This document shows, in pieces, positions 32,839 to 37,133 of a stretch of 64,000 nt of DNA. This DNA comes from Thermosediminibacter litoriperuensis (GTDB taxonomy: Bacteria; Bacillota; Thermosediminibacteria; Thermosediminibacterales; Thermosediminibacteraceae). Both the position numbers and the translations under genes were made by a program. The number at the start of each line of letters is the position of its first letter. Within the stretch, counting starts at the first letter, position 1. The notes beneath the pieces are model-generated. The model searched no databases and had not been told where the DNA came from. It saw only the letters and a list, made by a program, of their open reading frames with translations. Location of the stretch: positions 1-64,000 of the forward strand of contig NZ_VNHO01000005.1 in assembly GCF_008124715.1 (NCBI RefSeq). Direction: 5' to 3'.

Positions 32839-33252
32839 CTATTCCCGGCCTTTTTCTTCATCAAGGCCTTCTTTTTTTGACTTTCTGAGCTGTTCCAGTC
32901 TCTCTTCTATTACTTTTAGCTGTTCCTTTAACAGCCTGGCCTCCTGGGCGAGGATTTTCGCCTCATACTTTCGTTCATTCTCGGTGGCAGGCTCCGCATC
33001 ATCGGGATAAAGCGTTGCAGGATCATAATGATAGGAACCTACTGCCCAGAAAGGCAGCCCCGTGGCATAGTAACGCCACCTCCATCCGTGACCGAACCCG
33101 AAGGCACCCAGCCCTGGTCCGAAAGTCCTGCGCCAGAACCTCCTTCCCACGGGGTTCATGAAGCCCGGCACGGGAAAGCCTGCGCAGAAGCCTGCAGCTC
33201 TACCGGTCATGAGGCCAAACCCCAGGGGGCCCGTTCCATCAACTCTCGGCAT
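32839..33252 (-). CDS. DUF5320 family protein
   Basis: 137 residues. N terminus MPRVDGTGPLGFGLMTGRAA is the DUF5320 signature (MPRGDGTGPxGxGPMTGRxxG), followed by an aromatic/Gly-rich segment (RRTFGPGLGAFGFGHGWRWR) and a charged coiled-coil tail (EAKILAQEARLLKEQLKVIE). GGAGGTG precedes ATG 33250-33252. The family is of unknown function and usually occurs beside NifX-like and MinD-like genes, as here. Confidence 0.85.
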   Translation of the reverse strand: MPRVDGTGPLGFGLMTGRAAGFCAGFPVPGFMNPVGRRFWRRTFGPGLGAFGFGHGWRWRYYATGLPFWAVGSYHYDPATLYPDDAEPATENERKYEAKILAQEARLLKEQLKVIEERLEQLRKSKKEGLDEEKGRE

Positions 33253-33396
33253 ATTTTCACCTCCTTTCGGTAAAATTAACCCCGCTGCTTTCAATGGCTG
33301 AAATAATGGCCCGGCGCTGACGTGTCCATCGAAACCCTTTCATATTCATATTTTCGGCAGCAGTTGATTTCATCGCAATCTTCCACCACCTTGGGG

Positions 33397-33858
33397 CTAA
33401 TCCAAACAATCTAACGGTCCTCTTCGCCTCTGGCCATGACACCATCCCCTGTGATTTCCTGTTGGGACCCATTCCCTACTGTGACATTCCGGGCATTCGG
33501 CGTCCTGGATATTATTTTTTTGGGTTTCTTCCCAAACATGGCCGCACTTTAAACATTTTACATGCCGCGAAAATTGAAAATTTCCCCCTTCGATTCTAAT
33601 TGCTTTACCCTTTACCAGCGCATCAGCTACTTTGCTGCGGGCCGAGTTTATTATCCTGAAAAATGTGGGCCGGGAGATGCCCATTTTATCGGCACATTCT
33701 TCCTGCTCCAGACCCTCCAGATCCTTCAATCGAACGGCCTCTAGCTCTTCCACCGTCAGTACAACTTCTTCCAGTTGTCTAAGCGGCACTCCCGCAGGCT
33801 TAAAATATGTTACATCGGGCAAAAACTCCACTCTACGCCATTTCGGTGGTCTCGGCAC
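33397..33858 (-). CDS. DUF134 family DNA-binding protein with zinc-ribbon tail
   Basis: 153 residues. N-terminal [20 protein letters not shown] and the HTH region [40 protein letters not shown] identify DUF134 (sigma-70 region 4-like). The C-terminal part has two Cys pairs, CLKCGH and CPECHS, likely a zinc ribbon. GTG start. It is probably the regulator of the adjacent NifX/ATPase/DUF5320 group and possibly of itself, given an inverted repeat in its promoter. Confidence 0.88.
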
Positions 33859-34274: not shown

Positions 34275-36188
34275 TCATTTCAGGCCTAGGGCTTTTCTCT
34301 TTCTTAAAATGTGGGATTCAATTTTATCGGCTGCTTCTTTCGGGTCATCCCCAAGGGCTACCTTACCGCCGGTAAGTTCCTCCAGATCCTCCGTAAGCAG
34401 TTTTACAAGCCTTTCGGCTCCCGATATAAACGGCACCGGGGAAATGTGGGTAAGAGCACCGTATGCCAGCGCAAAAACCCCATCGATAGTGGCTTTCTGC
34501 TCCATCCACTCGGGAGCAGTAATCGCAATGGGAAGGTCGGGTATATCCAGGTCCATATGGTCCGCCAGGGCGGTCACCAGCATCGATATTCTTCCCGTAT
34601 CGGTACAGGTGCCGAAGCTCAGGACCGGAGGTATATTAAGTGACCTGCACACTTCTTTTAGGCCGTCTCCGGCCATCTCAACGGCATCCATGTTGCAAAG
34701 GCCTGCTACTTCCAGGCCGTGGTTGCCGCATCCAGCGCTTACTACCAGGATATCCTTTCTGATAAGTTCCTTCGTTAAGTTGACCGTCATCCAGTCCTGC
34801 GGGCCATTTCTCAGAGTAGAGCAGCTCGCCAGAGCCACAATGCCCTTTATCTTCCCGTCGGCTATCACCCGGACCAATGAATCCAGAATGTTTCCAAGCG
34901 CTTCCAGAACAGCCTCAGTGGAAAAACCGGCAATCGCCTTCGTTTTAATAAGCGGAACCTTCGGCGTTACTTTGCCCCTTCTCTTTTTGAAGTTCTCTAT
35001 ACCGAGCTCGATTAATTTGTCGGCGATGAAGCTCGCCTCGGGCGGCTTGTAGTCGAAAATGTAATGTAAATCCGGCAGCCGCACAATATCATTGATACTG
35101 ACCAGAGTCACCTGATACTTATCGGCATAAGGTCCCAGAGCCGGAGGAGAGCAGTTTTCTTCCATCGCAAACACATCGACGGTCCCGGTGGCTAAAAGCG
35201 GTTCTATAGCGAGCCAGTTTCCGGTTAATCCTACAAAGACATCATCTATGTTAAATCTCTGTATAAGCTCCTGCCCTGTTTCGATACAACCCACAACCCG
35301 CAGCCCTTTGGCACCTGCGGCTTTTGCCTTTTGCTGGACCTCCGGAGTCCTGGCTTTTAAAAGGGTTGCCACACCGACCCAAGGCTGGTGGCCGTTAAAT
35401 ACGATATTTACGTAGTCCGGATCCATAATGCCGAGATCCACATCGACCTCGTGGGGTTTCGGTGTCCCGTACAATATGTCCTGGACCATTTCAAGGCCTA
35501 TTTGGGCGGTGTAAATTGTCGCAAGCCCGAGTCTCAGAGCTTTCTTTGCCAGTGAAATGTAATCGCCGTCCACGTTGGTAAGGCAGCTTGCAACGGCATC
35601 CCTTATTTCGCTGGTCACCCCTGTCGGGTAAATGCCCAGTTTTCTCCAGACTTCCTTCCTTTTCATTGGAGCAAAGGTTTCTACCATAACGCTGGGATTT
35701 TCATCATCTCTGTCCATCTCCGCCTGCAAAAAATCAGCCAGTTGAACAGCCAGGTTATTGACATCCTGATTGGTGTTTATGCCTACTTTTTCACACATCC
35801 ACTTTAACTTATTGACATCGGTGAAGGTAAAAGGCGTTTTCCCCTCTCCTGTAGCTTTGAAGGTTTTGTATGCCTGATAGGCATGATGGCTGTAAGTGGC
35901 GGCTCCCATGGCATTTTGAAGCAAAAACTTCCTTATGGCCATGGCATCGGCATCAATGCCGCAGACGCCGCGGGTCATCCTGATTTTGTCGTTGATGCGG
36001 CAGGGCCCCTGAGAACACAGTTGACAGCTCAGTCCCTGAAGGCAGAATTTACACCTGGCCTTTTCCTGCACAGCCCAGCGGTCGAAGACATTTGTAAGGC
36101 CGTCTTCCCTAATCCGCTTTAACATTTCTTCAACCGAATCGTGGTAGCTTACGCGCCCTTCGGATTTTTCCATGACGGTTTCAACCAT
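34275..36188 (-). CDS. cooS: Ni-dependent carbon monoxide dehydrogenase catalytic subunit (CooS), divergent
   Basis: 637 residues, normal length. N-terminal iron-sulfur motif with Cys 46, 49, 55, 58, 63 and 76 (RCKFCLQG, SCQLCSQGPCRI, RGVCG). Of the C-cluster ligands, His267 (NGHQP), Cys346 (EENCSPP), Cys456 (ASC), Cys487 (AGCGNHG) and Cys528 (GTCTDTGR) and the catalytic Lys565 are present. However the usual GICCTG-type segment is replaced by VVGCIETG (300-305), and the position of the second N-terminal CC cysteine is Ser54. It oxidises CO or reduces CO2 with ferredoxin-type partners. It stands alone, with no acetyl-CoA synthase, CooF or CooC beside it. AAGGAGG precedes ATG 36186-36188. Confidence 0.92.
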   Translation of the reverse strand: MVETVMEKSEGRVSYHDSVEEMLKRIREDGLTNVFDRWAVQEKARCKFCLQGLSCQLCSQGPCRINDKIRMTRGVCGIDADAMAIRKFLLQNAMGAATYSHHAYQAYKTFKATGEGKTPFTFTDVNKLKWMCEKVGINTNQDVNNLAVQLADFLQAEMDRDDENPSVMVETFAPMKRKEVWRKLGIYPTGVTSEIRDAVASCLTNVDGDYISLAKKALRLGLATIYTAQIGLEMVQDILYGTPKPHEVDVDLGIMDPDYVNIVFNGHQPWVGVATLLKARTPEVQQKAKAAGAKGLRVVGCIETGQELIQRFNIDDVFVGLTGNWLAIEPLLATGTVDVFAMEENCSPPALGPYADKYQVTLVSINDIVRLPDLHYIFDYKPPEASFIADKLIELGIENFKKRRGKVTPKVPLIKTKAIAGFSTEAVLEALGNILDSLVRVIADGKIKGIVALASCSTLRNGPQDWMTVNLTKELIRKDILVVSAGCGNHGLEVAGLCNMDAVEMAGDGLKEVCRSLNIPPVLSFGTCTDTGRISMLVTALADHMDLDIPDLPIAITAPEWMEQKATIDGVFALAYGALTHISPVPFISGAERLVKLLTEDLEELTGGKVALGDDPKEAADKIESHILRKRKALGLK

Positions 36189-36227
36189 GGGCTAACCTCC
36201 TTAATTCCAGATATGCTATATCAAGTA

Positions 36228-36237
36228 TGTTCATAAA
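36228..36237. promoter_or_regulatory. TGTTCATAA motif upstream of cooS
   Basis: ATGTTCATAA occurs 40 nt before the cooS start, and the same ten bases occur in the DUF134 promoter palindrome. No convincing -35/-10 pair was found for cooS. A shared regulator is possible but rests on a single half-site. Confidence 0.35.
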
Positions 36238-36287
36238 TTTCGGTTTATATGCGAAAGGCACCGGATAATTGTTTTCGTAAATATCGT

Positions 36288-36455: not shown

Positions 36456-37133
36456 ATGGACAATAAAAAAAACGAAGGAGCATATTTTTCCGCTTTCTCA
36501 AAAAGCAGGAAAAATCTTGCGCGCCTTACACCTCAAGATATTGCAAGATCGGCTCTTTGCGAATACGATGGTCCCAGGATGTGTTTCTATTTGAAAAGCT
36601 TTAACCACAGCTTTCAGATATCATACCCCGAGGGTAAAATTTCCTTTTTGGACTCAAACAATAAACCGCCGTTAGAATGGGGGCTGATACTGCTCAATTA
36701 CCTTTCCGGTGCGAAAGATATACCTCTCGCCGGAAAATGGGTCAGCTACAGGGAACTGCCCGATGGGAACGTATTTTTCCCCTCGATTAAAACCCATGTT
36801 TTGGATGTCCTAAGCAAGTATTACACTACCTGTAATAAAGATTTACTTCGTGAGAGATTGGTGCATTTAGGTTTCAACCCTGAAAAAAATAAAGCCGATT
36901 TATCGGCAGAAGGCCTTTTTACCCCCAGGATACCAATTAAAATACAATTCTGGGAGGGTGAAGACGTTATACCTCCATCATGCCAGATTCTTTTTGATTC
37001 CAGTATATCCTGTCACATGCACATAGAAGACATTGCGGCACTGTGCAGCGTAATCAGGGATTTGCTTATTAACGCTGACTTTAGCTTGTCCGGAAGAAAA
37101 TGCGTTCATTTGGAAGATGATGAAGGCAGATAA
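36456..37133 (+). CDS. DUF3786 domain protein
   Basis: 225 residues. The pattern FQISYPEGKISFLDSNNKPP, LLNYLSGAKDIPLAGKWVSY, RELPDGNVFFPSI and FWEGEDVIPPSCQILFDSSI fits DUF3786, a family of unknown function found mainly in acetogens and sulfate reducers, often near corrinoid or CODH genes. No signal peptide or membrane segments. GGAGGGATATA precedes ATG 36456. It is divergent from cooS, with 267 bp between. Its end overlaps the convergent AIM24-type gene by 28 nt. Confidence 0.8.
   Translation: MDNKKNEGAYFSAFSKSRKNLARLTPQDIARSALCEYDGPRMCFYLKSFNHSFQISYPEGKISFLDSNNKPPLEWGLILLNYLSGAKDIPLAGKWVSYRELPDGNVFFPSIKTHVLDVLSKYYTTCNKDLLRERLVHLGFNPEKNKADLSAEGLFTPRIPIKIQFWEGEDVIPPSCQILFDSSISCHMHIEDIAALCSVIRDLLINADFSLSGRKCVHLEDDEGR

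Follow-up and report, generated by a model that had tools for sequence, protein, structure and literature searches.

The gene and its surroundings

The window (the whole stretch of 64,000 nucleotides of Thermosediminibacter litoriperuensis analysed here) carries, on its reverse strand, an uninterrupted open reading frame with an ATG start codon and a strong Shine-Dalgarno sequence (AAGGAGG), whose product belongs to the CO dehydrogenase (CODH) family; its position and that of the features discussed below are collected in Table 1. The NCBIfam model of the CODH catalytic subunit (TIGR01702) recognises the protein with 878 bits, the cut-off being 478, and the Pfam Prismane/CODH family with 497 bits; the HCP family model (TIGR01703) reaches 52.7 bits, under its cut-off of 360.8. 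The top match in the PDB is 7b7q (E 8e-266), which is CooS-V (CODH-V) of Carboxydothermus hydrogenoformans, with the canonical CODHs far behind (the next at 1e-128). The sequence peculiarities named in the original prediction are all present in the reading frame, namely VVGCIETG (residues 298-305) where GICCTG is usual, and an N-terminal cysteine segment consisting of Cys46-X2-Cys49, Ser54 in place of the first cysteine of the usual CC pair, and Cys55.

Downstream of the cooS gene lie genes for DUF134 and DUF5320 proteins, while AIM24, YpeB and a cell-wall hydrolase are found among the further neighbours. As had been predicted, no gene for CooF, CooC or acetyl-CoA synthase (ACS) occurs within about 6 kb.

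Table 1: Features of the cooS region, in positions of the window.
Feature	Position	Strand	Basis
cooS-V-type gene, clade D structural group D-1, 637 aa	34275..36188	(-)	7b7q identity, TIGR01702, tree
Cys46-X2-Cys49, motif of the D-cluster (subunit-bridging [2Fe-2S])	36042..36053	(-)	7b7q Cys38/Cys41; 80/80 homologues
Glu303 codon, replaces CODH-II Cys295 (= CooS-V Glu295)	35280..35282	(-)	7b7q mapping; Glu in 80/80
Cys301 codon, lineage-specific Ser to Cys change, no predicted ligand	35286..35288	(-)	7b7q Ser293; homologue counts
Conserved bipartite promoter-like element TCGCATATAAACCGAAATTTATGAACATACTTGA	36221..36254	(-)	66 bases upstream of start codon; de novo motif
DUF134 helix-turn-helix gene, C-terminal zinc-ribbon-like part, adjoins DUF5320 gene	32839-33858	(-)	
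DUF3786 gene, upstream, divergent from cooS	36456-37133	(+)	

Metal ligands and structural group

The structure-guided alignment of the ligands for which the original prediction had called was carried out against 7b7q, with which the protein shares 61% identity across 625 residues in a residue-by-residue mapping; the two agree at every cluster ligand given for CooS-V. At the D-cluster, Cys38 and Cys41 of CooS-V correspond to Cys46 and Cys49; at the B-cluster, Cys47, Cys50, Cys55 and Cys68 correspond to Cys55, Cys58, Cys63 and Cys76; at the hybrid cluster, His259, Glu295, Cys338, Cys449, Cys480, Cys521 and Glu556 correspond to His267, Glu303, Cys346, Cys456, Cys487, Cys528 and Glu563, and Asn337 is also kept, as Asn345. 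The C-cluster ligand missing from the protein of the window is therefore the equivalent of CODH-II Cys295, so that of the two readings proposed for this cysteine, moved or lost, the second is correct: Cys301, two residues before Glu303, pairs with a non-ligand residue of CooS-V, Ser293, and is incidental. Cys301 was thus not found to be a normal ligand, nor the segment to be common in active enzymes.

The catalytic lysine is conserved, as had been stated (Lys565), but the original prediction overlooked the acid-base histidine, whose position is taken by Tyr99. The set typical of canonical Ni,Fe-CODHs (five Cys and one His, with an acid-base His and Lys) is accordingly interrupted at Glu303 and at Tyr99. 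The D-cluster segment is indeed altered, though not degraded; since Cys49 is the equivalent of the D-cluster ligand Cys41 of CooS-V, the cluster retains two cysteines per subunit, in a CX2C motif of the [2Fe-2S] type also found in the CODH of D. vulgaris, where the Gly to Cys change which gives rise to a [2Fe-2S] D-cluster arose independently (Jeoung et al. 2022; PMC9311411).

Structural group D-1 has been defined by a type III D-cluster, a glutamate at the first C-cluster cysteine and a tyrosine at the acid-base histidine, the lysine being kept (Inoue et al. 2019; PMC6344411). The corresponding marks are all present in the protein of the window, that is Glu303, the C-X2-C-X5-C motif (Cys46, Cys49, Cys55), Tyr99 and Lys565.

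Homologues and phylogeny

A scan of genome contigs yielded 80 homologous loci whose products are 70 to 94% identical to the protein of the window. Glu303, Cys46, Cys49, Tyr99, Glu563, Lys565 and the remaining ligands are invariant in all 80; position 54 is occupied by Ser in 70 and Thr in 10, and position 301 by Ser in 76, Asn in two and Cys in two, the latter being the nearest relatives of the window genome (L005 and L006). The phylogenetic placement suggested by the original prediction was also obtained: CooS-V, the protein of the window and its homologues form a clade of 22 rows, split at 100/100 from four canonical CODHs, three with a solved structure and one from the same genome. Monophyly with CooS-V is thus judged against these four outgroup sequences, the other groups of clade D lying outside the sample, and the order of depth in the tree is unsure, several long branches coming together at the split and within the canonical set; the same grouping is, however, independently given by the ligand residues.

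One of the homologous loci belongs to a record named as a Calditrichales bacterium (L057, JAJGRE010000002.1), which has a D-1 gene of clostridial affinity; as this genome also encodes SpoIIR, SpoIVA and GPR, the name of the record may be wrong.

Genomic context

Throughout the examined flanks of the 80 loci no conserved gene neighbour of the D-1 genes was found; the commonest shared neighbour family, which resembles response regulators, occurs at 22 of 82 loci. Neither DUF134 nor DUF5320 recurs beside the D-1 genes; in L005, a close relative, a different gene occupies the next listed reading frame. A solitary setting such as that of the window gene is typical for clade D, where 64% of the genes are without operon partners (Bohm and Land 2026; PMC13056359). 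According to the same genomic-context survey, clade D co-occurs with active CODHs, and its co-occurrence with HCP is the highest. The host of the window gene matches this pattern, because it has both. An HCP-like gene is present on contig C34, and a canonical CODH of 628 residues with the full ligand set (L001) is encoded on contig C8, where it adjoins a 4Fe-4S protein and a CooC-like gene (L085; G000:C8:1-20000); formyl-THF synthetase and further genes of the Wood-Ljungdahl pathway come next, these neighbours having been identified by reading their sequences, without a library scan.

A promoter-like element upstream of the D-1 genes

In front of the D-1 genes stands a common bipartite element whose distance from the start codon hardly varies (60 to 80 bases in most cases); its consensus is TACATAtt-...-tGaGaAAaCTt and its general shape RYATA, 15 bases, GRRMAAACT. 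It was recovered from 69 non-redundant upstream regions by expectation maximisation with anchored starts, with a log-likelihood of 435 compared to 99-112 in six shuffled sets. Scored with a two-box matrix, 55 of the 69 genes lie above the 95th percentile of a background of 561 further upstream regions from these loci, a figure which measures consistency and provides no independent proof, the matrix having been trained on the same genes; likewise, the copy in the window, itself one of the training sequences, scores above all 561 background regions. In a pattern search of the genomes nearly all the matches to the element belonged to the CooS genes, and the single other match examined, inside or beside a metabolic gene, looks like chance.

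The element is likely to be the promoter of an alternative sigma factor, judging from its sequence. The consensus of sigma-F is GYWTA, 15 to 16 bases, GGNRANAHT. A scan of the D-1 upstream regions with a sigma-F matrix gave an enrichment (p 8e-15), the weights having been partly set after the motif had been seen; the strict consensus, in a scan of eight sigma models whose p-values should be read with that number in mind, placed eight of the 69 genes over threshold (rank test, p 5e-4), whereas the sigma-A consensus was not enriched in these regions (p 0.98) and that of sigma-E gave a rank shift (p 0.0016) but only one gene of 69 over threshold. By the strict consensus of sigma-F, the element of the window (GCATA-N15-GAACATACT) ranks no higher than the top 19% of the background regions. 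Among control genes of the same genomes, the spoIIR promoters (sigma-F) gave nine of 30 over the strict sigma-F threshold and scored above background with the CooS matrix (p 0.003), while those of spoIVA (sigma-E) responded to the sigma-E consensus and failed with the CooS matrix; the upstream regions of gpr and of the SASP genes matched neither the sigma-F consensus nor the CooS matrix. De novo motifs from the upstream regions of spoIIR, gpr, SASP and spoIVA were mostly ribosome-binding sites. Sigma-F is consequently the best, if unproven, candidate for the element, the resemblance not being conclusive. Sites for the stress regulators HcpR, FNR/CRP, NsrR, Rex, PerR and CcpA were not enriched upstream of the D-1 genes.

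Proposed function

The protein of the window is very probably a CooS-V-type protein of clade D, structural group D-1, with a Ni-free hybrid cluster. Its fold family, ligand set and clade follow directly from the data described above; the type of cluster, the absence of Ni and the absence of CO turnover are expected by analogy with the crystallised homologue, 61% identical. In CooS-V (7b7q, 7b7t, 7b95, 7b97 and 7b9a) the cluster, without Ni, is a [4Fe-3S] when reduced and a [4Fe-2S-S*-2O-2(H2O)] when oxidised, and the protein, with its Ni-free [4Fe-3S-nO] cluster, carries out neither CO oxidation nor CO2 reduction (Jeoung et al. 2022; PMC9311411). Given the Cys to Glu change, the active site of the window protein is likewise expected to be a Ni-free Fe-S-O cluster which does not oxidise CO. 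The suggestion that the clade differs in its metal content and serves a purpose other than CO oxidation thus agrees with what has been described for CooS-V (PMC9311411) and for group D-1 (PMC6344411), and is not new: the gene is a normal representative of a described and crystallised group, whose metal content and role have already been discussed for the type protein.

A mechanism may be outlined along these lines. In a homodimer of the CooS-V type (clade D, structural group D-1), the active site of the CODH fold would bind a Ni-free [4Fe-3S-nO] cluster through His267, Glu303, Cys346, Cys456, Cys487, Cys528 and Glu563, and electrons would arrive through the [2Fe-2S] cluster at the interface (Cys46, Cys49) and the [4Fe-4S] cluster (Cys55, Cys58, Cys63, Cys76). 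The most likely activity of the protein would be the low-potential reduction of some small oxidised compound, such as hydroxylamine, NO or another reactive species, serving stress protection instead of CO oxidation. To this combination of a reductase activity and a protective role, where both the physiological substrate and the protection are putative, we would give roughly even chances. The midpoint potentials of CooS-V are about 300 mV lower than those of HCP, and its hydroxylamine reduction is slow (kcat 0.13 per s), NO reduction not having been detected (PMC9311411). The very low hydroxylamine activity weighs against the proposal, as do the lack of an upstream stress-regulator site and of a conserved gene neighbour which could serve as a hint.

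A more specific setting, compatible with the hybrid-cluster reductase and adding to it, is that of the forespore: in spore-forming Clostridia, CooS-V-type proteins may be developmental, a sigma-F-type promoter of their own driving their synthesis in the forespore, where the reductase would protect the developing spore. We consider this possible, though rather less probable than the reductase role itself. The conservation of the bipartite element and of its distance from the start codon, the enrichment of sigma-F and not of sigma-A in the scans, and the response of the spoIIR and not of the spoIVA promoters point in this direction, as do SpoIVA in 36 of 36 and SpoIIR in 35 of 36 host genomes tested, two counts which lend weak support to a link with sporulation, the homologues having been picked as the closest and being nearly all from Clostridia. 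The few genes over the strict sigma-F threshold, the silence of the gpr and SASP regions and a pattern which hardly matches anything besides CooS genes weigh on the other side; a search of the literature for a link between sporulation and the expression of D-1-type CODHs returned nothing direct and no published expression data, and the class-level co-occurrence (D-1 in 4 of 17 genomes, spoIIR in 16 of 17) is uninformative. The shared promoter-like element is possibly the one new point of this analysis; if it is a sporulation promoter, the question of the function of CooS-V becomes simply testable, and the forespore would be the first physiological setting for the group, whose proteins would shield or condition spores against oxidised species of nitrogen or oxygen.

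A role as redox sensor or regulator instead of enzyme, with a cluster that rearranges with the redox state and passes a signal on to other proteins, appears somewhat less probable again. In CooS-V both the cluster and the gas channel respond to the redox state, the channel being open in the reduced state only (PMC9311411), and redox sensing has been suggested for the mostly solitary genes of clade D (PMC13056359); no partner or regulator gene is, however, conserved next to the 80 loci, and the accessibility of the reduced cluster through the gas channel suggests a reductase rather than a sensor. A Ni-dependent CODH retaining CO oxidation, with the nearby Cys301 as replacement ligand, is very improbable, since the 7b7q mapping and the homologue counts speak against this residue as a shifted ligand, the acid-base histidine is replaced by Tyr99, and the exchange C295E leaves CODH-II Ni-deficient and without activity towards CO (PMC9311411).

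Comparison with known systems

The family models still name the D-1 genes as CO dehydrogenases, as the high score of TIGR01702 illustrates; a reading of the genome based on annotation only would therefore credit it, through this gene, with a CO oxidation which the protein probably lacks. The closest known system is CooS-V of C. hydrogenoformans, with which the protein of the window shares the cluster ligands, the CX2C motif of the D-cluster, the acid-base tyrosine and the equivalent of Glu556, as well as its length, the solitary gene and a host with further CODHs; the two differ in 39% of their residues, and CooS-V has Ser293 where Cys301 is found here. With respect to structural group D-1 (Inoue et al. 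2019) no group-defining trait differs. The CODH of D. vulgaris (PDB 6b6v, structural group E-2) has the same CX2C motif and [2Fe-2S] D-cluster, but it still has the canonical Cys ligand and oxidises CO, and falls in another clade of the tree. The HCPs (e.g., PDB 1e1d and 8cnr) would share the Fe-S-O chemistry of the hybrid cluster, to judge from the CooS-V homologue; Glu563 is the counterpart of CooS-V Glu556, a residue that has been equated with Glu494 of HCP (PMC9311411). The similarity to HCPs in sequence is weak and limited to the C-terminal part, whereas the protein of the window has the architecture of a CODH, with its D-cluster.
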